DNA of 64,000 nt from Candidatus Rokuibacteriota bacterium (GTDB lineage: Bacteria; Methylomirabilota; Methylomirabilia; Rokubacteriales; CSP1-6). Where the stretch lies: contig VGLJ01000007.1 in the NCBI GenBank assembly GCA_016866775.1, positions 1 through 64,000 of the forward strand. The letters are read 5' to 3'. A program made the translations under genes and the position numbers. Under the pieces are notes generated by a model, which searched no databases, was not told the origin of the DNA, and worked only from the letters and a program-made list of their open reading frames with translations. The number at the start of each line of letters is the position of its first letter. Within the stretch, counting starts at the first letter, position 1. Positions 3,440-38,709 of this stretch are shown piece after piece.

Positions 3440-3448
3440 GAGATCCGG

Positions 3449-21598: not shown

Positions 21599-23125
21599 AT
21601 GGGTCGACCGAGCCCGATCGCGCTGATGGTACTCGCCACCCTGCTCTGGACGGAATCACCGGGCGCTCAGACCGTGAAGGCCGGAATCGTCACGACCCTG
21701 GAGGGTCAGGTCACGGCCCGGCGCGCGGCGCCGCCGGGCGGCGTGCACCTGAAGTTCAAGGACGACATCTTCCTTCAGGACACCGTCGCCACCGGCGACA
21801 AGTCGCTCGCCCGCATGCTGCTCGGCGGCAAGGCGGTCGTCACCGTCCGTGAGCGCTCGCCTCGCCCGACGGGACCCGCGTCTACGTGTCGCAAGACGGG
21901 GCGAGCGACAGCGTGGCCGTGATCTCGACCGCCACGAACACGGTCCTGACGACCATCAGCGTCGGCGACAACCCCTTCGGCCTGGCGGTCTCCAAGGACG
22001 GCACCCGCCTCTACGTCGCCAACACCGCGAGCAACACGGTGTCCGTCAGCAACACCGGCAACAACACGGTCGAGCGCACCATCAGCGTGTCGGCGTCGCC
22101 GAAGGGCCTCGCCCTCACCTCCGACGGCACGAGGCTGCTCGTCACGAACAGCGGCACCAACACGGTCTCGGTCATCAGCACCGCCAGCCTCGCCGTGCTC
22201 ACCACGATCACGATCGGCACCACGCCGTTCGACGTCGCCGTGAACAGCGACGGCACACGCGCCTTCGTCGTCCGGAACACGACGAGCGGGACCGTCGTGG
22301 CCGTCGACGTGAGCTTCGGCGCGCCGCTCCTCACCGTGGCCGCCGGGGGCAGCATCACCAGCACGACGACCGATTCGCTGATCCAGTTCGCCTCGAACGG
22401 CGTCGCGATCGGGGCGGAGATCGTGCGGCTCGCCGGCCGCTCGACGGCGACCGCGACAGAAACCGCGGACGGCGTCAGCCTCACGCTCGGAACCGATCAG
22501 CCCGTGAAGACGAACGGGGCCCTCATCCAGGCCTCCGGGGCCACCGTCTCCGCGCACAAGGCGATCACGGTCGACACCGCGCTGCTCGCGGCGACCGCGC
22601 CGCTGCTGAGCCTCAACAACAGCAGCACGCTCACGACCGGATTCGAGGCGATCGACCTCATCCAGCGCGTGAAGCTGACCAGCGTGGGGCCGGTCGTGAA
22701 GCTCGACAATGCCACGCTGACCGTCGGAGGTGGCGCGCTGGTGCGTGTCGGCGGGGGGAGCCTGCTGCGCGTCACCGGCGATCTCGTGCAGCTCGTCAAC
22801 GGCGCGCGGCTCACGCTCTCGAACGGCCCGCTCCTCTTCGCGAGCGGCACCTCGGTCGTCAACGTGAGCGGCGCGCTGATCGCGTTCGAGGGCGGCGGCA
22901 ACATGGTCGACGTCACGAACAGCCTCTGCGCGAGCACCTGCCCGTCGTTCAACGTTCAACGGCATCCCCGTCTTCCTCACCGGCGGGGCGACGAGCGGTC
23001 AGGTGAACATCGGCGCGGGCGCGATCAAGAACCCGTCGCTGGGCACGATCACGAAGTCGAGCGCGAGCTCGACGGCCCTGGTGGTGGTCGACGGCCCGAC
23101 GTCGAAGGTGACGATCGCCCCGTGA
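21599..23125 (+). pseudogene. Rearranged FecR-domain / YVTN-propeller secreted protein
   Basis: An N-terminal signal peptide (LMVLATLLWTESPGAQ) and the start of a FecR domain (GQVTARRAAPPG...FLQDTVATGDKSLARMLLGGKAVVTVRERS) end near 21850. A second frame then begins abruptly inside a YVTN propeller (SPDGTRVYVSQDG, then three to four repeats such as TRLYVANTASNTVSV). It runs on into a repetitive beta-rich region with LSLNNSSTLTTG, VKLDNATLTVGGGALV and LVNGARLTL. A 7-bp tandem duplication at 22947-22960 shifts the frame again; the third frame finishes as GIPVFLTGGATSGQVNIG and ends at a TGA near 23125. The pieces look like one family broken by a deletion and a duplication. Confidence 0.65.
22947..22960 (+). 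repeat. 7-bp tandem duplication (GTTCAAC x2)
   Basis: GTTCAAC occurs twice head to tail. Removing one copy restores the reading CPSFNGIPVFLTGGA across the break, so the duplication itself explains the frameshift in the FecR/propeller gene. Confidence 0.85.
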
Positions 23126-23136
23126 TGACAGTCCGA

Positions 23137-23245
23137 GCGGCGGCTGTGCCGCCGCAATCCGGCCCTGGGGGAGGCAGACAAAGAGCGAGCCGCATGGCTC
23201 GCTCTTTGTCTGGCGTCGGAAGGGGGGCGCGAAGCCCCCCTCCGA
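23137..23245. terminator. Three stacked hairpins (copy B of the intergenic hairpin family)
   Basis: Three stems in a row: 8-bp GCGGCGGC/GCCGCCGC (23137-23155, loop TGT); a perfect 17-bp stem with a GCAT loop (23175-23212); and a G6/C6 stem with one bulged A (23216-23245). They fill the gap between two convergent gene ends and should stop transcription from both sides, chiefly the long minus-strand operon's upstream-most neighbour and the FecR-like gene. Confidence 0.65.
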
Positions 23246-23250
23246 GGAAT

Positions 23251-24792
23251 TTACTTCAGCCGCGAAACGAGATGCTCCGCGACCCGCAGCGCGTTCGCGA
23301 TGATCGTCAGCGCCGGGTTCACCGCGGCGCTGGAGACGAAGAAGCTGCCGTCCACGACGTAGAGGTTGTCGATGTCGTGCACCTTGCAGTTCGTGTCGAG
23401 CACGGACGTCTTCGGATCGGCCCCGAACTTACAGGTCCCGATCTGGTGCGCGACGCCCGCGAGCGGGATGCGCGCCGAGAGGAAGCCGCGCTTCGGCATG
23501 ACGACCATGTCGGTGCCGATCTCGTGCGTGAGCCGCTTCAGGCGATCGAGCAGGCGCGTGTGGCCTTCGTCGTTGTTCGGCGTGTAGTGGAGCGTGATGC
23601 CGCCGTCCTTGCCCGCCTCGACGTGGTTGTTCGGATCCGGCAGGTCCTCGGAGGTCACCCACCAGTCGATCGAGTGGTGCGCGATGTAGTCGAGCGCCAT
23701 GCCGGGCGCGAAGAACGGCGCCCCCTCGGCGATCATCTCCTTCGACATCTTGCCGAGCATCTGGAAGTGGCCCATCGGGTACTCGAAGCCCGGGCCGCCG
23801 AAGTAGAAGTCGTTCACGCCGAACGTCTTCTGGAACTTCGTCGGGTTCGGCTTCTTGCCGATCGAGACCACCGCCGAGTTCAGATGGCACATGTAGTTGC
23901 GGCCGAGGAGCCCGGAGCCGTTGTTGCCGAGGCCCTTCGGGTGCTTGTCGTTCGCGGACATCTGCAGCAGCGCGGCGGAGTTGGCGGCGCCGCACGACAC
24001 GGACACGATGTCCGCCTGGAACTCCTCGTGGCGGCCGTTGACCTCCGCTTCGATCTTCGTCACCTGCCGGCCCGACGCGTCCGTGTGGAGCTTCAGGACC
24101 TTCGCGTTGGTGCGCAGCGTGACGTTGCCCGTGGCGATGGCCGGCATCACGCAGGTGGTGTGCGCGTCGGCCTTCGCGTGCACGAGGCACGGGAAGCCGT
24201 CGCACGTGTTGCAGCGGATGCACTGGCTCGTCTCGGGATGCGCCTCATCGAGCCGGATGCCCACCGGAAGCGGGAATGGGTGCAGTCCGGTCTTCCTGAT
24301 GCCGTCGACGACTTCCTGGATCCGCGGCTCGTGGCTGAGCGGCGGGTACGCGTAGGGCTCGCCGGGCGGATCGGTCGGATCGATGCCGCGCTCGCCGTGC
24401 ACCGAGTAGAGGCGCTCGGCCTTCGTATACCAGGGCGCGAAGTCCTGGTAGCTCAGCGGCCACGCGGGCGAGATCCCGCCGTGGTGCTTGATCTGGCCGA
24501 AGTCCTGCTGGCGGAGACGGAAGAGGACGGCGCCGTACATCTTCGTGTTGCCGCCGACCCAGTAGTGGTTGTGGGGATTGAACTTCTCCCCGAACTGGTT
24601 GTGCCACATGTCCTTCGTGTTGTACCGGGCCTCGTGGCACACGGCGTGAGGATCCCAATTCTCCTTCTCGCGCGGGAGGAACGTGCCCCGCTCGAGGAGC
24701 AGAACTTTCTTGCCCGCGTTCGCCAGGGCGTAGGCAAGGGTGCCGCCACCGGCACCGCTTCCAATGATGGCCACGTCGTATGAAGCTGTCAT
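23251..24792 (-). CDS. GMC-family FAD-dependent oxidoreductase
   Basis: 513 residues. The FAD-binding motif is VAIIGSGAGGGTLAYALA at residues 7-24, with an E in LLLERG. GMC motifs follow: HYWVGGNTKMYGAVLFRLR, the SCGAANSAALLQMS region, and C-terminal VAHQIGTCKFGADPKTSVLD with NLYVVDGSFFVSSAAVNPALTI. A CIRCNTCDGFPC segment (four cysteines) may hold a metal or Fe-S site, as in some cytochrome-linked alcohol or sugar dehydrogenases. It starts with a 4-base overlap on the NDH-2 gene and is the last gene of the cytochrome cluster, so it may feed electrons from an alcohol or sugar into that chain. Confidence 0.85.
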   Translation of the reverse strand: MTASYDVAIIGSGAGGGTLAYALANAGKKVLLLERGTFLPREKENWDPHAVCHEARYNTKDMWHNQFGEKFNPHNHYWVGGNTKMYGAVLFRLRQQDFGQIKHHGGISPAWPLSYQDFAPWYTKAERLYSVHGERGIDPTDPPGEPYAYPPLSHEPRIQEVVDGIRKTGLHPFPLPVGIRLDEAHPETSQCIRCNTCDGFPCLVHAKADAHTTCVMPAIATGNVTLRTNAKVLKLHTDASGRQVTKIEAEVNGRHEEFQADIVSVSCGAANSAALLQMSANDKHPKGLGNNGSGLLGRNYMCHLNSAVVSIGKKPNPTKFQKTFGVNDFYFGGPGFEYPMGHFQMLGKMSKEMIAEGAPFFAPGMALDYIAHHSIDWWVTSEDLPDPNNHVEAGKDGGITLHYTPNNDEGHTRLLDRLKRLTHEIGTDMVVMPKRGFLSARIPLAGVAHQIGTCKFGADPKTSVLDTNCKVHDIDNLYVVDGSFFVSSAAVNPALTIIANALRVAEHLVSRLK

Positions 24793-26417
24793 TTCTTATC
24801 GCCTCCGTTCGAGCCTTTCATACGTTGCGCAATGAGCTGCTGGAATAGATTCCGCAGCGGGGGCAGATGAGCAAAGAGCTGGTGGAACGCCTCGCGATCC
24901 ACCGTGAGCACGTCGACGGCGCCTGCGGTGCGCGCCGTCGCGTTCCGGGGCTGATCCGAGACCAGCGCCATCTCGCCGAAGCAGTCGCCGGCCCCGAGCT
25001 CGGCGATGAACACCGGCGCCTGCCCCGGCTTCTCGCTCACGATCTGGACGTTGCCGTTGACGACGACGTAGAGCCGGTCGCCCTTGTCGCCTTCCCGGAA
25101 CACCACCTCGTTCGCCTCGTAGTGCTGGCGCGCGATGCCGGCCCCGCGATCGACCTTGAGCTGCACGATGTCGGCGGGGAGAAGCAGGTCGAGGAACCAG
25201 TCCGTCGCCACCCGGATCTTGCGATCGAGACCCGGAAGCTTCATCAGGTAGATCACCCGCCACATGAACCACGCGAGGACCCCGGACAGCTTGAGGCCGA
25301 GGATCTCCGCCACCGCGGACCGGTGACCGAGTCCCGCGAGCTTGCCGAGGGTCTTGAACTCGAACCGCTGCTTCTGCCCGCGGCCCATGGTGGCCGCGAT
25401 GTTCCGGGCGAGCCGCGTGCCCTGGCGCAGCGCGTGCTGGGCGGTGGGCGGGCACGGCTGGCCGGCGTTCGTCACGTCGGGCACGATCGCGCAGTCGCCG
25501 AGCGCCCAGTGGCCGGGGAAGTCCGGCACCTCGAGGAACTCGTTCGCCACGATCCGGCCGCGCTCCATCTTGAACGGCAGCGCGGCCACGATCGCGTGCG
25601 GCGCCGAGGGCACCGTGCTCACGATCGTCTTGGTCGGGATGCGCTCGCCGCCGGCGAGGAGCGCGGTCTCGGCGGTGGCGCCCGCGAGACGGGTGTTGAG
25701 CCGGATGTCGACCCCGCGCTTGCGCAGGAGGTTCTGCGCGAACTCCGCGAGCGTCTTGGGCAGCTCGGGGAGGATCACGTCGCCCGCGTGGAGCAGGACC
25801 GTCTTGATCTCGTTCCGGTCGATGTTGCGGAAGTGGTGCGAAGCCTCGCGCACGAAGTCGTTCAGCTCGGCGATCGCCTCCACGCCCGAGAAGCCGCCGC
25901 CCGCGACGACGAACGTGAGGAGGGCGCGCCGCACCTCGGCCTCGCGCTCGATGTCCGCTTCCTCGAGCGCGTGAATCAGGTGGTTGCGCAGCACGAGGGC
26001 GTCGCCCAGGTACTTGAAGGGGAGCGCGTTCTCCGCGAGGCCCGGCTGGCCCGTGAAGCTCGTCTGGTTGCCGAGCCCGATGACGAGGTGGTCGTACTCG
26101 AGCACGTACGGCCGGGGCCGGAAGCCCGAGCTCATCGTGACGACCTTGTTCTTGACGTCGATCGACTCGACCGTCCGCGTGTAGAGGTTGGTGCGCGGGC
26201 ACAGGCGCCGGATCGGCGTGATCACGTCGAGGATGCCGATGCTGCCCGAGATCACCTCCGGGAGCATGGGCTGGAAGACGAGGTAGTTGTCCTTGCTGAC
26301 GAGCCCGATCTCGACGCTGGGGTCCTTCTTGAAGAGCCTCTCGAGCTCCATGGCGGTATAGACGCCGCCGAAGCCACCGCCGAGGATCAGGATGCGAGTC
26401 CGGCCGCCGGATGCCAT
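24789..26417 (-). CDS. Type II NADH dehydrogenase-like flavoprotein with C-terminal cyclic-nucleotide-binding domain
   Basis: 542 residues. FAD motif ILILGGGFGGVYTAMEL (res 9-25), a second Rossmann motif FVVAGGGFSGVEAIAEL, and GHWALGDCAIVPD place residues 1-390 in the NDH-2 family, which oxidises NAD(P)H and reduces quinone at the membrane surface. Amphipathic segments follow (LSGVLAWFMWRVIYLMKLPG). Residues ~420-542 form a cNMP-binding beta-roll (VVFREGDKGDRLYVVVNGNVQIV..., GDCFGEMALVSDQPRNATARTA). The motif GEMALxxxxPRxA is close to the cAMP phosphate-binding cassette. Ligand control of NADH oxidation is inferred. Confidence 0.85.
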   Translation of the reverse strand: MASGGRTRILILGGGFGGVYTAMELERLFKKDPSVEIGLVSKDNYLVFQPMLPEVISGSIGILDVITPIRRLCPRTNLYTRTVESIDVKNKVVTMSSGFRPRPYVLEYDHLVIGLGNQTSFTGQPGLAENALPFKYLGDALVLRNHLIHALEEADIEREAEVRRALLTFVVAGGGFSGVEAIAELNDFVREASHHFRNIDRNEIKTVLLHAGDVILPELPKTLAEFAQNLLRKRGVDIRLNTRLAGATAETALLAGGERIPTKTIVSTVPSAPHAIVAALPFKMERGRIVANEFLEVPDFPGHWALGDCAIVPDVTNAGQPCPPTAQHALRQGTRLARNIAATMGRGQKQRFEFKTLGKLAGLGHRSAVAEILGLKLSGVLAWFMWRVIYLMKLPGLDRKIRVATDWFLDLLLPADIVQLKVDRGAGIARQHYEANEVVFREGDKGDRLYVVVNGNVQIVSEKPGQAPVFIAELGAGDCFGEMALVSDQPRNATARTAGAVDVLTVDREAFHQLFAHLPPLRNLFQQLIAQRMKGSNGGDKK

Positions 26418-26425
26418 GGGGTTAG

Positions 26426-26998
26426 TTAGGAGGCGGACTCGGAGCGGCGGAGCTCTTCTAGACGGGACTCCATGACCTTCGTGAACTGTTCCCGGACGCC
26501 GGGCAGGGTCGTGTAGAGGGCCGCGAAGTTGCCGCTGCTCATCTTGAAGACGCGCGTGGGGGCGACCGCGCGGATCGTGGCGTTGCGCGGGGCCTTCCCG
26601 AGGAGCGCCATCTCGCCGAAGTGGTCGCCGGGGCCGAGGACCTTGAGCACCTCGTGCTGGCCGCCCGGCTTCATGTGGACGACCTCGACGCTGCCGCTCT
26701 TGACGACGTACACGTGCTGGCCCGGCTCGCCCTGCTTGAAGATGGTGTCGCCCTGGGCGAACTCCTCTTCGACGAGCGTGCGCTGCGCGAAGAGCGCGAC
26801 GACCGCGTAGAGCGCCACGCCGACCGCGAGCAGGCCCATCACGGACGCGAAGCCGAGGAGGAGGAGCGGCCACTTCAGCGTGAACGCGAGGAAGCCCAGC
26901 AGCGCCACGGCGCCGATACAGAGCTGGGCCAGGTGGAGCACGCGCGTCCGCCAGTCACCGCGAGCGATTGCCGGCATCACCTTGAAGCGTCCCAGCAT
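26426..26998 (-). CDS. Membrane-anchored cyclic-nucleotide-binding-domain protein
   Basis: 190 residues. Two hydrophobic helices (about 24-42 and 47-70) are followed by a cNMP-binding domain (EEFAQGDTIFKQGEPGQHVYVVKSGSVEVV, GDHFGEMALLGKAPRNATIRAV). It closely resembles the domain at the end of the neighbouring NDH-2, suggesting shared origin. There is no catalytic domain, so it probably acts as a sensor or structural partner. Its ATG overlaps the stop of the tetrahaem cytochrome gene by one base (TGATG), and NDH-2 begins 8 bases downstream. Confidence 0.8.
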   Translation of the reverse strand: MLGRFKVMPAIARGDWRTRVLHLAQLCIGAVALLGFLAFTLKWPLLLLGFASVMGLLAVGVALYAVVALFAQRTLVEEEFAQGDTIFKQGEPGQHVYVVKSGSVEVVHMKPGGQHEVLKVLGPGDHFGEMALLGKAPRNATIRAVAPTRVFKMSSGNFAALYTTLPGVREQFTKVMESRLEELRRSESAS

Positions 26999-27690
26999 CA
27001 GCCGCGCCCTCCCGAAGCTGCCTTCTTGACCGCCGGGATGTCGTGCGCGGGGCCATGGCAGGAGATGCACTCGGTCTTGTTGGTACGCAGCTCGTCCGAG
27101 ACCTTGCCGTTCTCGAGGTGGATGTCCTGGGCCATGAACCGCTTCGCGCCGTTGTGGCACTTGAGGCACAGCGTGTTCTCGAACGGCTCCGGCATCTTCA
27201 GCGGGAGGTGATACGAGCCGGTGTTGTACTTGTACACGTGCCGCAGGCCGGTCAGCTTCGCCGTGATCGTGCCGTGCACTCCGTAGTTGGCGTGGCACGA
27301 GTAGCACTCGGTGCCGGGCCCCATGCGGTTCTGCGCGTGCAGCGAGGCGAGGGAGGCGCTCTTCGGGTTCCGCAGATCGTCGACATACGCCTTCATCGTG
27401 AGGTGGCACGAGCCGCAGAACACCACCTCGGTCGCGTACTCGAGCGTGGCGAACTGGCCGACACCGAGCAGGACGAGCGGCAGGACGCCGAGGGACAGCA
27501 GATGCACCCAGAGCGCGCTCCCCTCCGTCTGGCGACCCCGGAACATCACCAGGGACACCACGATCAGGACGAGGATGATCGCCGAGATCCCCGCCGTGAG
27601 CGCGATCGCCCAGTCGACGGCCGAGCCCCAGCGGACGACCTCCCCGCCGGGCGCGGTGCTGGCTGCTTCTGCCGCCCCTACGAAGCCCAC
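26998..27690 (-). CDS. NapC/NirT-type tetrahaem membrane cytochrome c
   Basis: 230 residues with two N-terminal membrane segments (about 27-48 and 62-80), then four CxxCH haem sites: CGSCH, CYSCH, CLKCH and CISCH. The order of membrane anchor then four haems matches NapC/NirT quinol dehydrogenases, though the extra first helix is unusual. It would take electrons from quinol and pass them to periplasmic cytochromes, here presumably the small cytochrome c and the decahaem protein. The spacing to neighbours (3 bases and a 1-base overlap) implies one operon. Confidence 0.9.
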   Translation of the reverse strand: MGFVGAAEAASTAPGGEVVRWGSAVDWAIALTAGISAIILVLIVVSLVMFRGRQTEGSALWVHLLSLGVLPLVLLGVGQFATLEYATEVVFCGSCHLTMKAYVDDLRNPKSASLASLHAQNRMGPGTECYSCHANYGVHGTITAKLTGLRHVYKYNTGSYHLPLKMPEPFENTLCLKCHNGAKRFMAQDIHLENGKVSDELRTNKTECISCHGPAHDIPAVKKAASGGRG

Positions 27691-27693
27691 CGC

Positions 27694-28044
27694 CTACTTC
27701 TTCAGGGACTTGACGTGAGCGACGAGCGCCTTCACCTCGGCGTCCGAGAGCTTGGGATAGGCCGGCATGGCCTTCGACTTGCCGATGGCGCCGCCACCCT
27801 TCGCGATCGACTCCGCGAGCTTCGCGTCGTCCAACCCCGAAAGCCCCGCGCCCTTCGTCCAGTCGCTCGGCTTGTCCTTCAGCTTCTGGCCCATGGCCCC
27901 GTCGCCGGCGCCGGAGTCGCCGTGGCACTTGGCGCACTCCTTCGCATAGATGGCCTTCGCGTCCTGGGCCGACGCGTCGCCCGCGCTGAGCCCCATGATG
28001 CCGACCACCGCGACCAGTGCTGCCGTCAGGAACGTCCGCTTCAT
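27694..28044 (-). CDS. Small class I cytochrome c
   Basis: 116 residues. A signal peptide is clear (MKRTFLTAALVAVVGIMGLSAGDASA). The mature part has one CxxCH (YAKECAKCHGDSGAGDGAMG) and a C-terminal methionine region (GKSKAMPAYPKLSDAEVKALVAHVKSL), typical of monohaem periplasmic carriers. It is placed between the decahaem and tetrahaem genes and is a natural shuttle between the inner-membrane quinol oxidase and the outer-membrane end. Confidence 0.92.
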   Translation of the reverse strand: MKRTFLTAALVAVVGIMGLSAGDASAQDAKAIYAKECAKCHGDSGAGDGAMGQKLKDKPSDWTKGAGLSGLDDAKLAESIAKGGGAIGKSKAMPAYPKLSDAEVKALVAHVKSLKK

Positions 28045-28062: not shown

Positions 28063-31000
28063 CTACTTTTTGACTCTGGGCGTGAGGTTCTCGACCGTGA
28101 AGAGCTCGTTGTTCTTCAGGTAGAACCGCGCGAGCTCGCTCTGGTTGAACGGCCGCGCGCCCAGCCGGTTCGAGATCCCGATCTGGTTCCCGCTCTCGTC
28201 GTTAGGCCGATCGCGCTTGTAGGCTTCCGCCACTTTGAGCGCCGGGCCACGCGTCTTTATCGTAGCGATGACTTCCGGGACGGGCTGCGGGCTCCATCCG
28301 AGATACCCCGGCGTGCCCGTATCGATCAGCCGCACCACCTTGAGGCCGTTCTTGCCGTCGGCCACGTAGGCGTACTGGCCGGCGTAGGTCGCGGCCACGG
28401 TGACGCCGGTCGCGTCGTTGAGCGAGCCGCCGGCGTTGAAGAACTGCGCCGGGCCCGGGGCCTCCGGCCGCTCGACGTCGATGATCGCGAGGCCCTGCGG
28501 CCCCGCCGCCACGTACGCGTAGGTCCGCACGAGGTAGAGGTCCCGCGCGTCGGCGAGCGCGACTTTGCCGGCCGTGGCGCGCGGGCGGTTCGGATTGGTG
28601 ATGTCGATCACCTTCATACCCTCGCGGTCGAGGACGAAGGCATAGCGGAACTGGACCTGGACGCTGCGCGGATCGACCACCGCGGGCGCGCCGACCGTGG
28701 CGACCAGCTTCGGCGCCGTGGGCGTCGAGATGTCGACCACGTTCAGACCGCTCTTGGCGGCGATGTACGCGTAGTTGCCGGCAATCGTGATGTACTGCGC
28801 GCCGGTCAGCGCGCCGTTCGGGTTGAACGTCGCGTCACGCTTGATGTAGTTGTTGGTCGGCTCGCCGTCGCTGAACGTGTTGACGTCCACGACGATCAGG
28901 CCTTCCGCGCTGTCCGTCACGAACGCGTACCGGAAGATCGGCGAGATCGGCTGCTCCTGGTTCTCGGGCCGCGACTTCCGGCCGAGATCCATGGGGTTGT
29001 TCGCCGCCAGCGCCACCGCGGTAGCGTCGGTCGTCTTCACTTGCACGTTCTGGCCGAGCGGCGAGATCGCCGCCGGGATGATGCGCTGGGCGACCGCCTT
29101 GTTGGCGATCGCGAAGATGTCGTAGACGCGGAACCCGCCCGGACCGTCCGCGACGTAGAGGAACTCGCCGCGGCGCACGATGGACCGGACGGCGTTGCCG
29201 CCCGCCGCGTGCGCCTCATCGAGCTTGCGCCCGCCGTCGACAAACTTCTTGTAGTCGGCCGGGTAGGACTGCTGGTGCAGCCAGCTGCCGATGACCGGCC
29301 GCGGCTCGTACCCCTCGGCGACGCGGATGCCCTGGAGGCCGCCGCCGCCCTGGGCCACGTAGATGTAGTCGCCCATCATGTTGGCGCCGTTCGCGCCCAT
29401 GCCGAGGACGCTCGAGAGCCAGGCATTGTTGTCCCCGCTCTTCGAAGCGTGGCAGTCCTCGCAGTCACGCGTCTCCTTGTTGCGGATCGTGTGCGGTGGG
29501 TTCGGCGTGTAGGCGAAGCCCGAGAAGCCCGGCGACGAGATCGTGGGCTGCTCGTGCACGGCTGTGTTGCGGTTGCGCTCGGCGAGCGTGATGAACACCG
29601 GGTTGGCGGGCCGGAAGGGCGAGATCTTGCTCCCCCCTCGGCTGCTGCCGATGCCCATCATGATGTTCTCGGCCTTGAGCAGCTGCGGGTAGTAGTCGGT
29701 GTAGGCCCGCGTCATGTCGTTCGCGATGTGGATCTCGGGGGTCTTGGTGTTCACGCGCACGGACAGGTGGCAGCCGTAGCAGCCGCTGTTCCACGACGCA
29801 TGGCAGGACGAGCACTCCATCACGTCGGTCTTGTGGGCGAGGGTGTCCTCGCTGGCCACGGGGCCCACGGAGCCATCCTTGCGCAGGCCCATCGCCTTCG
29901 CCGCCTTCGCGTTGTACGCGGGGTGGGCGGGGTTGATGGAATCGACGACCTGCTTGACCTCCCAGGAGAGGCCGTCCTTCATCTTCGAGTTCTGGATGAC
30001 CTTGCCGCCCTTGAGCTCCATCCACGGCTTGCCAAAGGGGGTCGTCTCCTTCGAGAGGTCGACCTCGGCGGTGCGCCCTGACGTCTTCAAGGTCGCGCGC
30101 TTGGCCGGCGTGCCGTGACAGTCCCAGCACCGGATGGCGATGACGTCGCGCATCTGGGTGTAGAGCTTCGCGTCCCCGCCGCCGTGCCCGTCCTGGGCGC
30201 CGTGGCAGTCGATACACTGCAGGCCCTTCTCGAGGTGGATGTCCTTGAGGTGAAGCGCCTTGTCGAACTTGGCCGGATCGTTGTCCGCGACCCGCTTGTT
30301 GTCTTCGCTCAACAGGTTGCCGTAGCGGTCGCGCTTGTAGACCTTCACGAAGTGCCAGCGATGCCCGTGGGCGTCACTGAACTGGACGTTCTTCATGTCC
30401 TTGTTGTGCGAGTAGAGCTCCGCCATCTTCGGGACGCCGTCCGGCCCGGCGGCGGCCTTGTACGGCGGGTCGACGCCGAGGACCTTCTTGTCGGGATCCC
30501 ACCATGGGTAGCCCATGCCGAGCTTGGTCACCGTGTCGTAGTCCGACTCCTGGTCCCACCAGAGCATGCCCTGGTACATGCCCAGCCCGCCGTTACCCTG
30601 GTGGTGGTGGCAGGTCATGCACTGGGCCGACGGGATGCTCCGCGTGAACTGGTGCTTGATCGGGTGGCCGGGCCGATTCTTCGGGATGCTCTTGTCGCCC
30701 GAGAACGAGAAGCCCTTGTTGCCGTACTGCGCCCACTGCGCGGAGTTCGCTTCCTCGCGGTCGTTGGCGTACGGCACGTGGCAGGCCGCGCAGCCGCTCT
30801 GGCGGAAGTCACCCCCCACGTCGTTCGGGCCCATGATCCAGAGGCCGGGATCGTTCAGACGGGTCTTCTGGATGGTGAGATAGACGCCGGAGACCTTGAA
30901 CTCGGTGCCACGGCCGCGCGTGCTCGCCCCGACATTGCCGCGCTCCAGGACCCGGAACGGGTCGGTGGGCTGCGAGATCTCCCACCGCGGGAACGCGAAC

Positions 31001-31638
31001 AGCTCCTTCACCACGCCGTTCGCGATGTCCTTCGGCGTCAACTCCCCGAGGCTCTTGATATTTGCCGGCTTGTACGACGTCTGGCCGTTCTTGTCGGTCA
31101 CGGGCGCGAATGCCTCGCCGTGCATCGGGATCTTCGACGGCTCGTGCCCGTTGTTGTAGAGGCCCGCGTGGAACACGACCGGGTTGGTCGCCATGACCGA
31201 GCGCCGCGCGGCGTCGACGATGGGCCCGTGGCAGTCGCCGCACGACTTGTCGGCGACCCGGAGGTCCGCCGGGTTCATGAACCGGATGAACTCGGGCGAC
31301 TCGTGGTTGATCGACCCGTAGACCGAGCTCGGGTTCGCCGCGTTCTTGAAGATGTTCTTCTGGCGCGGCAGCACGTGCGCCTTGTCCTTCTCCTTCGCGG
31401 TGCCGTCACCGCCGTGGCACTCCACGCAGCCGAGGTCCACGTTCTGGTGCATCGGCTCGATGCCGGCGTGGCAGCTCTCGCAGGACGCGCTCGAGGGTGC
31501 AGCAGCAGGCTTCGCCGGGGTGGCCGGCGCCTGGGCGGAGGCGCCGCCCGCAAGCATTCCGCCGACGGCCACTGCCGTCAAGAACACCGCGGCGAGGATG
31601 CTCGCCGCCGCCAGCCAGCTTCGGGTAGTTGCGCTCAT
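28063..31638 (-). CDS. Decahaem cytochrome c fused to an LVIVD beta-propeller
   Basis: 1191 residues with a signal peptide (cleavage near GGASAQA). Ten CxxCH sites lie in the first ~750 residues: CESCH, CVECH, CGDCH, CAACH, CMTCH, CIDCH, CWDCH, CSSCH, CYGCH and CEDCH. The last ~450 residues are LVIVD-type blades (YAYIAAKSGLNVVDISTPTAP, YAFVLDREGMKVIDI, YAYVAAGPQGLAIIDV, YAYVADGKNGLKVV). The combination suggests a large periplasmic or surface electron carrier with a docking propeller. It directly follows the porin gene (19-base gap), the arrangement of porin-cytochrome conduits. Redox partner and terminal acceptor are unknown. Confidence 0.9.
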   Translation of the reverse strand: MSATTRSWLAAASILAAVFLTAVAVGGMLAGGASAQAPATPAKPAAAPSSASCESCHAGIEPMHQNVDLGCVECHGGDGTAKEKDKAHVLPRQKNIFKNAANPSSVYGSINHESPEFIRFMNPADLRVADKSCGDCHGPIVDAARRSVMATNPVVFHAGLYNNGHEPSKIPMHGEAFAPVTDKNGQTSYKPANIKSLGELTPKDIANGVVKELFAFPRWEISQPTDPFRVLERGNVGASTRGRGTEFKVSGVYLTIQKTRLNDPGLWIMGPNDVGGDFRQSGCAACHVPYANDREEANSAQWAQYGNKGFSFSGDKSIPKNRPGHPIKHQFTRSIPSAQCMTCHHHQGNGGLGMYQGMLWWDQESDYDTVTKLGMGYPWWDPDKKVLGVDPPYKAAAGPDGVPKMAELYSHNKDMKNVQFSDAHGHRWHFVKVYKRDRYGNLLSEDNKRVADNDPAKFDKALHLKDIHLEKGLQCIDCHGAQDGHGGGDAKLYTQMRDVIAIRCWDCHGTPAKRATLKTSGRTAEVDLSKETTPFGKPWMELKGGKVIQNSKMKDGLSWEVKQVVDSINPAHPAYNAKAAKAMGLRKDGSVGPVASEDTLAHKTDVMECSSCHASWNSGCYGCHLSVRVNTKTPEIHIANDMTRAYTDYYPQLLKAENIMMGIGSSRGGSKISPFRPANPVFITLAERNRNTAVHEQPTISSPGFSGFAYTPNPPHTIRNKETRDCEDCHASKSGDNNAWLSSVLGMGANGANMMGDYIYVAQGGGGLQGIRVAEGYEPRPVIGSWLHQQSYPADYKKFVDGGRKLDEAHAAGGNAVRSIVRRGEFLYVADGPGGFRVYDIFAIANKAVAQRIIPAAISPLGQNVQVKTTDATAVALAANNPMDLGRKSRPENQEQPISPIFRYAFVTDSAEGLIVVDVNTFSDGEPTNNYIKRDATFNPNGALTGAQYITIAGNYAYIAAKSGLNVVDISTPTAPKLVATVGAPAVVDPRSVQVQFRYAFVLDREGMKVIDITNPNRPRATAGKVALADARDLYLVRTYAYVAAGPQGLAIIDVERPEAPGPAQFFNAGGSLNDATGVTVAATYAGQYAYVADGKNGLKVVRLIDTGTPGYLGWSPQPVPEVIATIKTRGPALKVAEAYKRDRPNDESGNQIGISNRLGARPFNQSELARFYLKNNELFTVENLTPRVKK

Positions 31639-31657: not shown

Positions 31658-33232
31658 CTAGAAGGTCAGGACAAGGCGAACGATGCCCTTGTAGACCGGG
31701 TCGTCGTTGCCGAACGTATCCTTGATGGCTCGCCCTGGAAGGAACACGGCGCCGCCCGCGAAGATCAGCAGGTGCTCGTTGAGAAACGGCTTCCAGGTGA
31801 TACCGGCGTTGAGCTCGTGGCCGACGTCGTTGGAAGGATCGCGGCCGCCGGCGACCGCCACCAGCGAGGAGGTGTCGTCGAACCGGACGTACGCGTAGTT
31901 CGCCTCGAAAATGGTCCTCGGCGTCAGCGTGAGGTCGATGCCGGCGTTGAGAGCGAGCACGCCGGGGTTCACGTACTGCGACGTGGCGTTCGCGCCACGG
32001 AGGGACGGGAACACGCTGTTGCCGCGCAGCACCGTGATGCCGCCGAGCTGGACCTTCTCGCCGAACAGGTAGCTGAACTGGCCGCCCGCGAACGCCGTGT
32101 TGTCGAACACGGAGTCGAAGCCCTTGGCCGACCGGTTGTTCGGGTTGTCGTCGCCGGTCGCGTAGGCGATGGCGAACCGCGGGTTGAACCAGTCGATCGG
32201 GTAGGCCACCTGCACGAAGGCCATCCCCGCGCTGATCTCGAGGTTGTCCCGGGTCGGCGTGTTGCGGGCCGTCTGCCCCGTCACGTAGTAGAAGGCGCTC
32301 GCGACGTTGAACCGGTCGATGTGACCGTTGGTGGTGAAGCCGATGTAGTAGGCGTTGAGGTCACCGCCGGCCGCGACCCCGGGCGCCTGATCGCGGCTGT
32401 ACACGAAGTTCGGCAGGACGTTGAAGCCGGGGAGGATGAAGTCGTCCCACTGCAGGCTCGCGACGAACACCTGGTGCTCGCGGCGCTTGGTGAGCTCGTT
32501 GAGCCCCGAGAGCTTCTCCTTGTTGAAGCGGTCGAACAGCGCCAGGTTGACCTTGAACTGGTTCCGCTCGAGCTCGCTGAAGACCCGGGCGCCGTTCTGG
32601 ACGTCGTTGTAGATCAGCCCGAAGAAGTCCGAGTTGAAGCCCTGGATACCGGCCCGGGCCGAGGTGGCGTCGAACGTCCGGCCGATCTCGAACAGCTTGA
32701 CCTCGGCGAACGCCTCCTGGAGGGTGATGTACTCGCCGCAGCCGTGGTCGGTGGCGTTGTTGTCGCCACAGCGGAACCGCATGATGGGGGCGACGCGGAG
32801 CGCCCAGTCCTTCGGGGTGAACACGGTGTCGCCGTGAAAGATCTCCAGGAACGCGACGGCCGTGATCTGCCCGAGGATGTTGTGCTCGTGATACGGCACG
32901 TTGCGGAAGCGGCCGCCGGTGAAGAAGTCCAGGTTGCGCTTACCGTCCACGAAGTTGTCGAGCACCCCGGTCAGCGAGAAGAAGATCTTGTCGCCCAAGA
33001 CCGGGATGTCGCCCTTGACCACGCTGGGGGCGTAGGGATCGTAGAGGGGACTGCGCGGCTTCTCGCCGACCCCCTGGGGCTCGAGCAAACGCCAGCGATT
33101 GATCTCGGGCAGGATGTCCGAGGTGGCCGGCGTCTGGGCGGAGGCAGCCGGCGCACCCGCAGCGGTGACGGCAAGCGCGAACAGCGAACCGAACAGCAGG
33201 CGGCGCGTCCTCAGTCGAGGTTCGATGGTCAT
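31658..33232 (-). CDS. Outer-membrane beta-barrel porin of the cytochrome cluster
   Basis: 524 residues with a signal peptide (LLFGSLFALAVTAAGAPAASAQ). The rest alternates polar and aromatic residues in amphipathic strands and ends in a phenylalanine (IVRLVLTF), the hallmark of outer-membrane insertion. Repeated strands such as FEANYAYVRFDDTSS, LNAGITWKPFLNEHLLIFAGGAVFL and FAGGQFSYLFGEKVQLGG support a barrel of many strands. With the decahaem cytochrome it could form a trans-outer-membrane electron conduit, as in MtrAB or Geobacter Pcc systems; homology to those barrels is not evident by eye. Confidence 0.82.
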   Translation of the reverse strand: MTIEPRLRTRRLLFGSLFALAVTAAGAPAASAQTPATSDILPEINRWRLLEPQGVGEKPRSPLYDPYAPSVVKGDIPVLGDKIFFSLTGVLDNFVDGKRNLDFFTGGRFRNVPYHEHNILGQITAVAFLEIFHGDTVFTPKDWALRVAPIMRFRCGDNNATDHGCGEYITLQEAFAEVKLFEIGRTFDATSARAGIQGFNSDFFGLIYNDVQNGARVFSELERNQFKVNLALFDRFNKEKLSGLNELTKRREHQVFVASLQWDDFILPGFNVLPNFVYSRDQAPGVAAGGDLNAYYIGFTTNGHIDRFNVASAFYYVTGQTARNTPTRDNLEISAGMAFVQVAYPIDWFNPRFAIAYATGDDNPNNRSAKGFDSVFDNTAFAGGQFSYLFGEKVQLGGITVLRGNSVFPSLRGANATSQYVNPGVLALNAGIDLTLTPRTIFEANYAYVRFDDTSSLVAVAGGRDPSNDVGHELNAGITWKPFLNEHLLIFAGGAVFLPGRAIKDTFGNDDPVYKGIVRLVLTF

Positions 33233-33258: not shown

Positions 33259-35244
33259 TCAACGGAGAGCTGCGATGTCGCCCCACGCCCGGAGCGTCTC
33301 GGACACGCTCCAGGCCTGTGCGATGCACCCACCCGGGAGATACGGGGGGTCAGCGTCGAACACTTCGGCGATGCTGCCCACCCCGTAATCCCCGAGGTGG
33401 TCGGCGAGGGGCGCCAGCATGGCGAGGGCGGCGGCCCGATCCCCGTAGACCTTGAAGTGCGCGCGCACGAACGGCCCGAGCAGCCACGCCCACACCGTGC
33501 CCTGGTGGTACGCGCCGTCCCGACTGCCGACGTCGCCACCGTAGCGCGGGCAGTACTTCGGCTCGCCGGGGGCCAGGCTGCGCAACCCGTACGAGGTGAG
33601 GAGGTGCCGCCCGCAGACGTCCACGACCCGGCGCTGGCGGTCCGCCGAGAGGGGGCTCTCCGGGAGCGAGACCGCGAAGATCTGGTTCGGGCGAAGCGCA
33701 TCGTCGAACGCGGTCGGTCCGTCGAGCACGTCGTAGCAGTATTGCTTACGCGGGTGCCAGAAGCGATCAAATCCTCGCTTGATGCGGTCGGCCTGGGCGT
33801 CCCACGCCTCGGTCGGGCGGCCGAGCCGCTTCGCGAACCAGCTCATCGAGCGGACGGCGTTGTACCACAGCGCGTTGATCTCGACGGGCTTGCCGATGCG
33901 CGGCGTCACCACCCAGTCGCCGACCTTCGCGTCCATCCACGTGAGCTGCACGCCGCTCTCGCCCGCGCGCAGGAGCCCGTCCGACGGGTCTTCCTTGATC
34001 CCGTAACGGGTGCCCTGGCGGTGCCAGCGCACGATGTCCTCGAGCACCGGGAACAGCGCCTTCAGGGTGGCGTCGTCGTCGGTGGCCTTGACGTAGGCGC
34101 GGATCGCGTCCACGTACCAGAGCGTCGCGTCGACGGTGTTGTACTCCGGCGCCTCGCCCTGGTCGGGGAAGCGGTTCGGGAGCATGCCCTGGTCGACGAA
34201 CTTCGCGAACGTGGTGAGGATGCGCCGCGCGATCTCGGGCCGCCCGGTCGACAGCGCGAGCCCGGGCAGCGCGATCATCGTGTCGCGGCCCCAGTCGCCG
34301 AACCAGTGGTAGCCGGCGATGACGGTGGCGCCCTGCGGCTCCCCCGGCGTCGGCCGCGCCACGATGAACTGATCGCACGCGAGCACGCTGTGGCGGATCC
34401 AGTCCGGCGCTTCCTTCGCCGTCGGCGGGCTCGAGCTCCAGCGAGAGAGCAGGTCGGCCTCGTGCGCCTGGCGCCGCTTCCACGCGGCCTCGCCGTCGAG
34501 CGACGGCGACGCTTCGGTGGAGAGCACGCCCGTCAGCGACTTGCCCGGCGAAAGCGATGCCCGGAACGTGCCGACGTGCAGGTTGTCGTCGATGAAGTCG
34601 AGGCCGCGCGCGGCTTCCGCCGCGAGCGAGAACCCGTGATGCCACGTGTGCGCCGGCTCGGCCTCCACGCCCTGCGCGAGCAGGACGTACGGGCGCGCGC
34701 CGTCGTACGCGGTGACCTTGATGCCGTTCGCCACGCGCTCGACGCCCATCTGCCAGCCGTTGGCGTGCGTCGTGCCGTGGTAGTCGCGATAGTTCGCCAG
34801 CGCCTTCAGCTCGATGCTCGCCGGCTTCTGGCCGCGCACGAGCTTGTACTGGACGTAGGTGGTGTTGGCGCCCTGCTCCATCCAGATGCGCTTCTCGATG
34901 AGCGCGTCCGCGACGGCGAACGTCCACACCGGCGTCGTCCCTTCGAGGCGGAACGTCTCGATGTCGATGTAGCCGTGCGGATCGACGTTGCCGTCACCCC
35001 AGCGGTTGGCGAAGAGCGGCCGTCGGATCGTGTCGTACTCGACGGTGTCGTCGAGCTTCGTGACGAGGACGGTGCGCCCCAGCGGCGGCGCGAGCGCCGC
35101 CACCAGGAGCCCGTGATATCGACGGCTCAGCAGGCCCGCCACCGTGCCGGAGGCGAACCCGCCGATTCCGTTCGTGCAGAGCCACTCGCGGCTCTCGGCA
35201 GAGCCGAGGTGCCCACAGACTTCCCGGCCCCACGCCAGCGCCAT
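33259..35244 (-). CDS. Glycogen debranching-type enzyme (amylo-alpha-1,6-glucosidase family)
   Basis: 661 residues. N-terminal EWLCTNGIGGFASGTVAGLLSRRYHGLLVAA is the bacterial/archaeal GDE_N signature. The (alpha/alpha)6 catalytic part contains AGYHWFGDWGRDTMIALPGLALSTGR, PNRFPDQGEAPEYNTVDATLWYV and CPRYGGDVGSRDGAYHQGTVWAWLLGPFV. The D in GDWGRD and the acidic residues of DATLW are likely catalytic. It would remove 1,6-branches of glycogen, releasing glucose. It follows the GH63-like gene by 11 bases and precedes the porin by 26 bases, so sugar breakdown and the electron-transfer genes may share a transcript. Confidence 0.88.
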   Translation of the reverse strand: MALAWGREVCGHLGSAESREWLCTNGIGGFASGTVAGLLSRRYHGLLVAALAPPLGRTVLVTKLDDTVEYDTIRRPLFANRWGDGNVDPHGYIDIETFRLEGTTPVWTFAVADALIEKRIWMEQGANTTYVQYKLVRGQKPASIELKALANYRDYHGTTHANGWQMGVERVANGIKVTAYDGARPYVLLAQGVEAEPAHTWHHGFSLAAEAARGLDFIDDNLHVGTFRASLSPGKSLTGVLSTEASPSLDGEAAWKRRQAHEADLLSRWSSSPPTAKEAPDWIRHSVLACDQFIVARPTPGEPQGATVIAGYHWFGDWGRDTMIALPGLALSTGRPEIARRILTTFAKFVDQGMLPNRFPDQGEAPEYNTVDATLWYVDAIRAYVKATDDDATLKALFPVLEDIVRWHRQGTRYGIKEDPSDGLLRAGESGVQLTWMDAKVGDWVVTPRIGKPVEINALWYNAVRSMSWFAKRLGRPTEAWDAQADRIKRGFDRFWHPRKQYCYDVLDGPTAFDDALRPNQIFAVSLPESPLSADRQRRVVDVCGRHLLTSYGLRSLAPGEPKYCPRYGGDVGSRDGAYHQGTVWAWLLGPFVRAHFKVYGDRAAALAMLAPLADHLGDYGVGSIAEVFDADPPYLPGGCIAQAWSVSETLRAWGDIAALR

Positions 35245-35255
35245 GGGTGACCTCC

Positions 35256-37916
35256 TTACTCGCCGCTCTGCTGCAGAAGCTTGGCGACGAGACCGGTCCA
35301 GCCCGTCTGATGGCTGGCTCCGACGCCGGCGCCCGTGTCTCCGTGGAAGTACTCGTGGAAGAGGATCAGGTCCTTCCAGTGCGGATCGGTCTGGAACTTC
35401 TCCTGCTGCCCGTGCACCGGCCGCTCGCCCTCGGCGTCACGCAGGAAGATGCGCGTGAGGCGCCGCGAGATCTCGGCCGCCACGTCCCAGAGCGACAGCA
35501 TCTTGCCGGAGCCCGTGGGGTACTCCTGCTGGAAGCGCGGCCCGTAGAAGTGGTCGAACTTCTGGAGCGACTCGATCAAGAGGTAGTTCACGGGCATCCA
35601 GATCGGACCCCGCCAGTTCGAGTTGCCGCCGAAGAGCCCGGTGGAGGACTCGCCCGGCTCGTAGTCGACCCGGTGCTCGTGACCCCCGACGTTCATGATG
35701 TACGGGTGCTGCTTGTGGAACCGTGAGATGGCCCGGATGCCGTATTCCGAGAGGAACTCCTTCTCGTCGACCATGTACTTGAGCACGCTGGCCAGGCGTA
35801 CTCCGTTGACCAGCGACAGCAGGCGACGCACCTGACCCTTGCCCATGTCGTGCTCGACGACGTGGTTGCGCAGCTCGGGCCGATTCTCGAGGAACCACTT
35901 CATGCGCCGCTCGAACTTCGGCATGCGCGCGAGGGCCTCGGGCTCGAGCGACTCCACCGCGTAGAGCGGGATGAGGCCGACCATGGACCGGACCTTCAGC
36001 GGCTTGGCGCTGCCGTCCGGCAGGTGGAGCACGTCGTAGTAGAACCCGTCCTCCTTGTTCCAGAGCTCGATGCCCTCGCCGGCGATGTTGTTCATCGCGC
36101 GCGCGATGTAGACGAAGTGCTCGAAGAACTTGGAGGCCACGTCCTCGTACGCCGGGTTCTCCTTCGCGAGCTCCATCGAGATGGCCAGCATGTTGAGGCA
36201 GTACATCGCCACCCACGCCGTGCCGTCGGACTGCTCGATGGTGCCGCCGGTCGGCAGCGGTGCCGAGCGGTCGAAGACGCCGATGTTGTCGAGGCCGAGG
36301 AAGCCGCCCTGGAAGACGTTCTTGCCGTCCGGGTCCTTGCGGTTGACCCACCACGTGAAGTTCAGCAGGAGCTTGTGGAACGTCCGCTCGAGGAACTCGC
36401 GGTCGGCCTTGCCCGTGATGCGGCGGTCGATCTTGTACACGCGCCAGGCGGCCCAGGCGTGCACGGGCGGGTTGACGTCGCCGAACGCCCACTCGTACGC
36501 CGGGATCTGCCCGTTCGGGTGCATGTACCACTCACGCAGGAAGAGCGTGAGCTGCTCCTTCGCGAACTGCGGATCGACGAGGGCCAGCACGATCGTGTGG
36601 AACGCCATGTCCCATGCCGCGTACCAGGGGTACTCCCAGATATCGGGCATCGAGACGACGTCGTCGTTGTAGAGGTGCGTCCACTCCTTGTTCCGGCCGT
36701 GCTTGCGGCTCTGCGGCGGCGGCGGGCCCGTCGGATCGCCGTTGAGCCAGCGCGCCACGTCGTAGTGGAACCACTGCTTGCACCAGAGCATGCCGGCGAT
36801 CGCCTGCCGCATGACCATCTGCGCGTCGTCGCTCAGCTTGGACGGGATGACGGTCGCGTAGAACTCGTCCGCTTCCTTGGTGCGCGCGTCGAACGTCTTC
36901 TCGAACTCGGCGCCGAACGGCGTCTTCAGCTCGCCGTCCGCCAGCCGCATCTTCACGACGACTTCCTTGCCGGCGGGGATGTTGAGCTGCCAGTACGGCG
37001 CCGCCTTCGTGCCTTCGGGCACGGGATTCACGGCGTTCTTCCTGCCGCGGATCACGAACTCGTGGAAGGCGTCCTTCACGTAGAGGTCCGGATTCTCGGT
37101 GCCGTAGAGCCGGCGGTAGTTGCTCTCGTTCTCGGTCCAGAGCACCGGCGGCGCGTTCTCGATATAGAAGTTGTACTTGCCCGGCAGCGCCGGGTTGTCG
37201 ACGGCGATCGTGTAGTGGTCGCCCGGCCCCTTCGAGCCGCGGAGCCGCGGACGCTGCGCATCCTTCTCCCACGACCACGTGTTGCGGAACCAGAGCGTCG
37301 GCAGCAGGTGGCACGTCGCGGCCTCGGGCCCGCGGTTGGCCACCGTGATCTTGATCAGGATGTCGGACGGCGACCCCTTCGCGTACTCGGCGAAGACGTC
37401 GAAGTACTTGTTCTCGTTGAAGACGCCGGTGTCGAGCAGCTCGAACTCCGGCTCGGTCCGCGACCGGCGCCGGTTCTCGTCCACGAGCCACGCGTAGGGG
37501 AACTCGCCCTGCGGGTACTTGTAGATCGCCTTCATGTACGAGTGCGTGGGCGTGGAGTCGATGAAGAAGAAGTAGTCCTTCAGATCCTCGCCGTGGTTGC
37601 CCTCGGACCCCGTCAGCCCGAACGCGCGCTCCTTGAGGATCGGGTCCTTCCCGTTCCACATCGAGAGCGCGAAGCAGAGCCGCTGGTGATTGTCCGAGAT
37701 GCCGAGCAGACCGTCTTCACCCCACCGGTACACACGCGAGCGTGCCTGGTCGTGGCCGAAGTAGTCCCACGCCGTCCCGAACTCCGAGTAGTCCTCGCGG
37801 ACCGTGCCCCACTGCCGCTCGGAGAGGTATGGCCCCCACCGCTTCCAGTGAGCGGACCGCCCGGTCGAGTCGGTCAGCCGCTTGCCCTCGGTGGTCGCCG
37901 CAGACTTATCCGCCAT
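35256..37916 (-). CDS. GH63-like glucosidase (MGH1 family)
   Basis: About 886 residues. Motifs of bacterial MGH1-type glucosidases are clear: [19 protein letters not shown] near the N-terminus, WENYLWF-like [17 protein letters not shown], then [67 protein letters not shown] and [20 protein letters not shown]. Such enzymes hydrolyse alpha-glucosidic bonds by inversion. The ATG at 37916 is preferred over a TTG at 37922; either way the start overlaps the end of the dehydrogenase gene. No signal peptide is visible, so it probably acts on cytoplasmic glucosides such as trehalose-like or glucosylglycerate compounds. Confidence 0.85.
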
Positions 37917-38709
37917 GGGCAAATTCCGGGAAGAGGGTCATGCCACCGTCCACCATGATCGTCTGCCCCTGGATGTAGTCCGCGTCATCGGACGCGAGGA
38001 ACACCGTCACCTTGCCGATGTCATCCGGAACGCCCACTCGTCCGTAAGGAATGAGCTTGCAGAGACTCGCCAGAGCCTCCGGCGTCTCCCACGCGGGCCG
38101 GTTGATCGGCGTCGCGATGGCGCCCGGGCCGATGGAGTTCACGCGGATCTTGAACGGCGCCAGCTCCTGCGCGAGCGACTGCATGAACATGCGCATCCCG
38201 CCCTTGGAGGACGCGTAGTTGACGTGCCCGGACCACGGAATCAGCTCGTGGACCGACGACATGCAGATGATCTTGCCCGCGGCCTTGGAGATCTTGGTGA
38301 CGCCCTGCTTGATCATCTGGCGCGCCGCCGCGCGAGCGCAGAGGAAGTTGCCCGTGAGGTTGACGGCGAGCACGAAGTTCCACTGCTCGAGCGTCATCTC
38401 GGTGAACGCGGCGTCGCGCTGTAACCCCGCGTTGTTCACGAGGATGTCGATGCCACCCCACTCCTTGAACATCTGCTGGAACATCGCCTCGACTTCCGCC
38501 TCTTTCGAGACGTCGGCCTTGATCGCGATGGCCTGGCCGCCGTTCGTGACGATCTCCTTCACGACGGCTTCCGCAGCGTCCGTCGCGGTCACGTAGTTGA
38601 CGACGACCTTGGCGCCGGCGGCGCCGAGGCATTTCGCGACGCCTTCTCCGATGCCGGAGTTCGCGCCGGTGACAAGGGCTCGCTGTCCTGTGAGGGGCTG
38701 GTAGGGCAT
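37906..38709 (-). CDS. Short-chain dehydrogenase, glucose 1-dehydrogenase type
   Basis: 267 residues. Cofactor motif TGANSGIG (res ~14-21), NNAG at ~91, catalytic S-Y-K as [21 protein letters not shown], and the C-terminal [21 protein letters not shown] match classical SDRs closest to bacterial glucose 1-dehydrogenase. It would oxidise glucose to gluconolactone with NAD(P). AAGGACA precedes the ATG. It heads the run of minus-strand sugar genes and overlaps the glucosidase start by about 11 bases, so glucose from those hydrolases is its natural substrate. Confidence 0.85.

Follow-up and report, generated by a model that had tools for sequence, protein, structure and literature searches.

A protein of 1191 residues in which a decahaem cytochrome is fused to an LVIVD propeller (28063..31638, minus strand) and a predicted outer-membrane β-barrel of 524 residues (31658..33232, minus strand) are encoded side by side in a 64,000-nucleotide stretch of DNA from a Candidatus Rokuibacteriota bacterium (contig VGLJ01000007.1, positions 1 to 64,000; hereafter the window). 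The barrel is a near-obligate, that is close to obligate, partner of the fusion, and the pair looks like an undescribed example of the porin–cytochrome kind that lies outside any named family. We lean towards the reading that the two proteins are the outer-membrane part of a porin–cytochrome electron conduit with interchangeable inner-membrane donors and an outward-facing propeller. Most of the porin–cytochrome conduits known so far come from metal-respiring anaerobes and belong to a few barrel families; the conserved pair reported here combines a different barrel fold with a propeller-tipped cytochrome. If this reading is right, extracellular electron exchange extends to the Acidobacteriota, to phototrophs bearing the FMO antenna protein and to Sphingobium plasmids, where it has not been looked for.

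The fusion is a secreted protein with a ten-haem wire and a seven-bladed LVIVD propeller. A preliminary description of this DNA, made from the letters and their open reading frames, had already named it a decahaem cytochrome–LVIVD fusion, with the haems in the N-terminal part and the propeller in the rest, and this is borne out in its coordinates, its ten CxxCH motifs, its Pfam match and its modelled propeller. The motifs lie at residues 53, 71, 133, 283, 340, 475, 504, 609, 620 and 726. The haems span residues 53–730 (29449..31482), about the first 61% of the chain, and the protein has exactly 20 cysteines, every one of them inside these motifs. A likely Sec signal peptide, read by eye, covers residues 1 to about 36 (31531..31638), with a hydrophobic stretch at 11–29 followed by ASA-QA and without a lipobox. 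The propeller occupies residues 756–1140 (28219..29373), and the LVIVD repeat PF08309 matches with an E value of 4.4e-29 (100 bits against a gathering threshold of 20.2). Pfam matches on the haem region, to cytochrome c7/c3 and to MtrC/MtrF domain II/IV, are weaker; of these, PF22113 (MtrC/MtrF domain II/IV) passes narrowly at residues 279–350 (35.5 against 30 bits). An AlphaFold2 model built from a 47-sequence alignment has a mean per-residue confidence (pLDDT) of 79.0 and a predicted template-modelling score (pTM) of 0.85; residues from about 756 to 1140 are mostly above a pLDDT of 90, and their strand list fits seven blades. The nearest solved fold of this part is 1l0q_A, a YVTN propeller from a surface-layer protein of an archaeon (Z 30.4, root-mean-square deviation 2.1 over 274 residues), and the structure matches listed for the whole fusion model are propellers. 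Sequence searches of solved structures gave weak matches: the single protein had four at E <= 1, and the 47-row profile hit octahaem nitrite reductases across some 57 positions (E 6.7e-7).

The window's phylum looks NC10-like: a pmoA-type gene (PF02461) is carried by all five genomes of the same class that were tested but not by the window's own, a pattern that recalls NC10/Methylomirabilota and Rokubacteria. Within this phylum the fusion was found at E <= 1e-20 in 9 of 95 genomes, the window's own counted, and at the same threshold it was matched in 47 of 396 Acidobacteriota genomes, 42 of them with a best E value of 0; the five other Acidobacteriota matches (4.8e-23 and weaker) are partial and were dropped before co-occurrence was counted. 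Forty-seven loci were then read: the window, eight more from its phylum, and 38 from the 42 Acidobacteriota genomes; the remaining four (G166, G267, G332 and G381) have broken or partial matches. All ten haem motifs are kept in each of the 47 aligned sequences, the window included, with variant spacing at site 133 (CX4CH in 24, CX3CH in one) and at site 53 (CX4CH in two). Because the ten motifs are conserved in 47/47 and use all the cysteines, a chance occurrence of CxxCH is ruled out, as is a misassembly of two genes, the single-frame architecture recurring in the 47 loci and in 13 plasmid records. Beyond the motifs, nine histidines are invariant (47/47), one is present in 46 sequences and one in 45; judged from the alignment, these conserved extra histidines would suffice for bis-histidine ligation of all ten haems.

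The barrel was recognized from its model, its structure match and its position next to the fusion. Its model, with about 18 strands, resembles the alginate exporter AlgE (Z 29.7, 14% identity). The likeness is one of fold only: the window barrel matches no Pfam family at E <= 0.1, and the family Alginate exporter AlgE (PF13372) is matched by one of 40 barrels, at 0.0067. None of the NCBIfam Ext models matched the window barrel, and among the 40 barrels no Pfam porin model matched well; three families were listed, none of them MtrB. A barrel profile compared with solved structures gave no PDB match at E <= 0.1. The lack of a Pfam family and the 18 predicted strands set the protein apart from MtrB/PioB-type barrels, and MtrB-type barrels do not appear among the 50 structure matches listed for it, which is an absence from that list and not an exclusion. 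The pair would probably go unnoticed in searches that rely on MtrB-type porin models, as the window barrel is hit by no Pfam porin model; four porin models are used in the accessible part of one study (PMC7399161).

The pairing of the two genes is close to invariant. In 47/47 loci, the window included, the barrel gene lies directly upstream of the fusion on the same strand; in L083, whose frame runs off the start of the contig, this order was taken from match positions. A separate search of the 396 Acidobacteriota genomes with a barrel alignment found the barrel in 41 of the 42 fusion genomes and the fusion in all 41 barrel genomes. The sole fusion-only genome, G332, has its match broken close to the end of a contig, none of the 396 carries the barrel alone, and in G441 the barrel is present twice but the fusion once. 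In the window's phylum barrel and fusion occupy the identical 9 of 95 genomes, and a plasmid search for the barrel returned the identical 13 of 72,556 records, adjoining the fusion in all 13. Fisher tests of co-occurrence gave p values of 4e-55, 9e-13 and 4e-54 for Acidobacteriota, the window's phylum and plasmids, respectively, all inflated by shared descent. Every one of the 47 loci encodes a barrel and a secreted multihaem cytochrome together, as expected of a porin–cytochrome conduit in the broad functional sense. Four of the 47 barrel proteins start with a tetrahaem segment that is continuous with the barrel (L087:5664-8006, L088:12291-14630, L089:12104-14467 and L091:5413-7866), and in the fusion tree these four group into one Acidobacteriota clade; such single chains in four relatives tie haem wiring to the barrel. 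Further genes with 4, 8 and 7 to 9 haems were seen downstream of the four.

The 13 plasmid records come from sphingomonad megaplasmids (12 Sphingobium and one Sphingopyxis) and encode the fusion at 37–40% identity over 94–95% of the query; four more plasmid records (two Gloeothece, one Nostoc and one Methanomethylovorans) match the propeller part only. Because S. herbicidovorans MH carries the pair on a plasmid (NZ_CP020539.1; fusion B6S01_RS18425, barrel B6S01_RS18420), its role is testable in a cultured, non-pathogenic strain. The core of this plasmid locus encodes a c554-like cytochrome, an HbpS-like protein, the barrel and the fusion, together with divergent genes for c3-type, membrane and cyclic-nucleotide (cNMP) proteins. 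On the same plasmid, pMSHV, an FhaC-type two-partner secretion gene and a hypothetical protein of 2092 residues precede the cytochrome cluster (L113:1416-9569), and homologues of neither were found in the 47 other loci. The FMO antenna protein was detected in 3 of 12 genomes tested, and because their genomes carry it, L100, L102 and L103 are assigned to Chloracidobacterium-like phototrophs. A scan of genome contigs with exact back-translated peptides yielded one locus.

Among named systems, ExtM is a distant relative of the fusion's cytochrome part. The ExtM equivalog model NF040943 matches residues 465–732 weakly, with 103 bits against a cut-off of 800, and matches all nine fusion-family members scanned at E <= 1e-3; because all nine match and yet the cut-off is missed, the fusion is related to ExtM but is not ExtM. 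The ExtHIJKLMNOPQS cluster of Geobacter sulfurreducens resembles the window in multihaem homology over the last five haems and in having a porin gene, of a non-MtrB type, within the cluster. It differs in that ExtM has 12 haems rather than ten and, in the available text of PMC5877670, is not said to carry a propeller. The neighbours in the window are not the ext set; the selenoprotein, Rieske and rhodanese genes of the ext cluster were not seen in the window operon. The MtrCAB, OmcB-type and ExtABCD systems likewise join a barrel to multihaem cytochromes, with a CymA-like inner-membrane quinol dehydrogenase of the NapC/NirT type as a possible donor. The window barrel differs from theirs in its AlgE-like fold of about 18 strands without an MtrB family match, and the cytochrome in ending in a propeller; OmcA/MtrC (TIGR03507) is not listed for the fusion at E <= 0.1. 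LVIVD/choice-of-anchor B surface proteins share the PF08309 propeller repeat, to which the fusion adds ten haems, and TIGR04312 scores 27.7 against a cut-off of 100 bits. With these cut-offs missed, the names ExtM, MtrC and choice-of-anchor B are all ruled out for the fusion.

Two further systems come close in parts. OetABI of syntrophic sulfate reducers also combines a porin with partner cytochromes in a proposed electron conduit, but its periplasmic and surface cytochromes are separate, and neither LVIVD nor a propeller occurs in the main text of the report (PMC10553843). Clusters of SEEP-SRB1, Desulfofervidus and D. ferrophilus IS5 place propeller proteins beside large multihaem cytochromes; as far as the accessible parts of these reports go (PMC5539420, PMC8322314), the propellers, of six or seven blades, have genes of their own and the texts mention no barrel paired with them, whereas here cytochrome and propeller form one chain. 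LVIVD repeats themselves are described from cell-surface proteins in the portion available of PMC2447325, and a Methanosarcina barkeri LVIVD-repeat gene was at least two-fold up during direct interspecies electron transfer, according to the available part of PMC6315138. No description of a cytochrome–LVIVD fusion or of a window-type barrel was found in the open-licence literature searched, and within that literature the preliminary statement that no named system has such a fusion holds. The same description had supposed that the propeller could anchor the wire to the surface or to a partner. A surface or partner role fits the near-obligate barrel and the surface-layer propeller fold, but the anchoring itself looks to be a matter apart from the propeller, because 17 of 46 complete fusion sequences carry an extra hydrophobic-plus-basic C-terminal tail, which the window protein lacks. 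These tails (for example in L100, L087 and L110) consist of a hydrophobic segment and an RRRR-type end, like a sortase-type sorting signal without a recognized motif. The earlier interpretation is thus supported in part; it had overlooked the porin and the operon, as well as how widely the fusion is distributed.

The barrel and the fusion belong to a run of ten co-directional genes on the minus strand, from 38709 to 23251, which we infer to be carried on one transcript; the gaps are 26 base pairs between debranching enzyme and barrel, 19 between barrel and fusion and 18 between fusion and cytochrome c. Upstream of the pair lie a short-chain dehydrogenase as first gene (37906..38709; PF13561 6.4e-66), a GH63/MGH1-like glycosidase (35256..37922; PF22422 2.9e-24), a relative of which is found near the fusion in three other loci, and a glycogen-debranching enzyme-like gene (33259..35244; PF06202 4.7e-121). 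Downstream follow candidate electron donors: a small class I monohaem cytochrome c with a hydrophobic N-terminus (27694..28044; PF00034 4.7e-14) and a membrane-anchored tetrahaem cytochrome of the NapC/NirT (NrfH-like) type, a candidate quinol dehydrogenase (26998..27690; PF03264 7e-13, 49.1 bits against a gathering threshold of 24.1), with four CxxCH motifs and two hydrophobic segments. They are succeeded by a protein with two transmembrane segments and a cyclic-nucleotide-binding domain (26426..26998; PF00027 7.8e-27), a type II NADH dehydrogenase (NDH-2) with a C-terminal domain of the same kind (24789..26417; PF07992 2.8e-32, PF22366 1e-9, PF00027 4.6e-24) and, as last gene, a GMC-type flavin adenine dinucleotide oxidoreductase (23251..24792; PF05199 2.5e-20).

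Relatives surround the same pair with other genes. Within the limited flanks of the 47 loci, neighbours include HbpS-like proteins (30 loci), HoxU-like/cNMP proteins (21), c554-like trihaem cytochromes (20), a membrane protein (16), a nonahaem cytochrome (15), HoxE/F-like proteins (8) and NDH-2 (4). The HoxU-like protein (L030:10535-12745 and relatives in 21/47 loci) is a HoxU/NuoG-like iron–sulfur protein that contains cyclic-nucleotide-binding domains internally and ends in a DmsB-like ferredoxin part, and the HbpS/GlcG-like protein (L030:1-1488 and relatives in 30/47 loci) often adjoins the barrel and has a lipoprotein-like N-terminus in L032. Cyclic-nucleotide-binding domains in the HoxU-like protein, in the product of 26426–26998 and in NDH-2 hint at control of electron flow by cyclic nucleotides. 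The fusion tree places the window with L027 in a clade of their own, set off by a long branch (1.37). No nonahaem cytochrome of the relatives' type was found in the window's genome at E <= 1e-10, nor a full-length HoxU–cNMP match, partial ones (37% identity over about 210 residues) apart; the nearest relative by tree, G033, has both the nonahaem and the HoxU-like protein, on another contig. Because the genome lacks the nonahaem and a full-length HoxU–cNMP match, the NapC/NirT module is read as a substitute donor, and NapC/NirT tetrahaem, cytochrome c and NDH-2 probably replace the relatives' donor module in the window. It is chiefly this swap of donors around a constant barrel–fusion pair that leads us to place the pair at the outer-membrane end of a wire. 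In genome G016 (L028:16136-19129, L029:2448-4348), an ExtM-like nine-haem gene shares a contig with genes related to those for cytochrome c and the NapC/NirT protein in the window, and this contig is a possible source of the donor module. The nine-haem protein has a related haem region (fusion profile 3.7e-40; ExtM 7.8e-40) but no LVIVD propeller by Pfam and no adjoining barrel of the window barrel's family.

In the conduit that we favour, electrons would enter from NADH through NDH-2 and quinone, or from another quinol source, and would pass from the membrane-bound NapC/NirT-type tetrahaem cytochrome to the small cytochrome c and on to the ten-haem wire. The barrel would form a complex with the fusion and hold the wire, its haems ligated, at the outer membrane or across it; oriented to the outer face, the C-terminal propeller would dock the wire to a partner, surface or substrate outside the cell, to which electrons would flow outward. 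A wider proposal, which we offer tentatively and hold to be possible rather than probable, is that the pair forms the outer half of an unrecognized machine from cytoplasmic NADH to the exterior. It would comprise the HoxU-like iron–sulfur/cNMP protein, a b-type-like membrane protein, the nonahaem and c554-like cytochromes, the AlgE-like barrel and the decahaem–propeller protein, and would be common to Acidobacteriota (including the Chloracidobacterium-like phototrophs), the window's phylum and the sphingomonad megaplasmids, the window holding a version with a swapped, quinol-based donor.

Several points weigh against the favoured conduit. The predicted barrel, 18-stranded and AlgE-like, is narrower than MtrB, for which 28 strands are predicted in the available text of PMC5877670, and a sheath of the MtrA-in-MtrB type may for that reason not be possible. 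The window fusion, its signal read by eye, has neither a lipobox nor a known surface-sorting signal, gene content around the pair varies widely between loci, and the C-terminal tails of its relatives could be inner-membrane anchors that place the protein in the periplasm. A further point against it is the distant kinship with ExtM, since the ExtM cluster holds a porin, ExtI, that has been implicated in reducing selenite and tellurite. The main rival draws on these last two points: the fusion would be a periplasmic reductase with its own uptake channel, ExtI/ExtM-like, the barrel admitting a small anion or organic solute that the fusion reduces or oxidizes. The ExtM homology of all nine members scanned, the solute-channel fold of the barrel (AlgE/OprD group) and the need for ExtI, a porin weakly similar to phosphate-selective porins, in full selenite and tellurite reduction (PMC5877670, available text) speak for it. 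Nevertheless, eleven non-motif histidines in at least 45 of the 47 sequences suffice to ligate every one of the ten haems, so that no catalytic haem with an open site is apparent, the haem–barrel fusions of four relatives are hard to square with a plain solute channel, and the ExtM score stays at 103 against 800; we consider this rival unlikely, though it has to be reckoned with.

Porin–cytochrome conduits can run in either direction, and the outer-membrane module might carry electrons inward, drawing on Fe(II) outside the cell, on minerals or on another cell and feeding a respiratory or photosynthetic chain. Uptake is conceivable because the carriers include phototrophs and sphingomonads, and an outward respiratory wire is less expected in sphingomonads and in the three FMO-bearing genomes. 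We judge it improbable, as the adjoining NDH-2 and HoxE/F-like NADH modules suggest outward flow from NADH and the phototroph loci hold no recognized donor or acceptor genes beside the pair in the flanks read. It is very improbable that the fusion is a haem–propeller enzyme with its catalytic site in the propeller, fed by the haems as in cd1 nitrite reductase or the quinohaemoproteins. Haem and propeller are indeed fused with a conserved junction, and cd1 NirS (6tsi) is among the Foldseek propeller matches at rank 42, but the best structure matches are surface-layer and lactonase-type propellers, no pyrroloquinoline quinone or haem d1 site was identified, though none was modelled, and the LVIVD repeats, as noted from PMC2447325, come from cell-surface proteins.

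Two other features of the window deserve mention. On the plus strand, a frame at 21886–24783 has a YVTN-like propeller region at its start and continues across the GMC gene in antisense; its propeller protein looks truncated or frameshifted. A molybdopterin oxidoreductase and its iron–sulfur/NrfD membrane partner, encoded at 1898–6271 on the plus strand, represent a second respiratory complex in the window.

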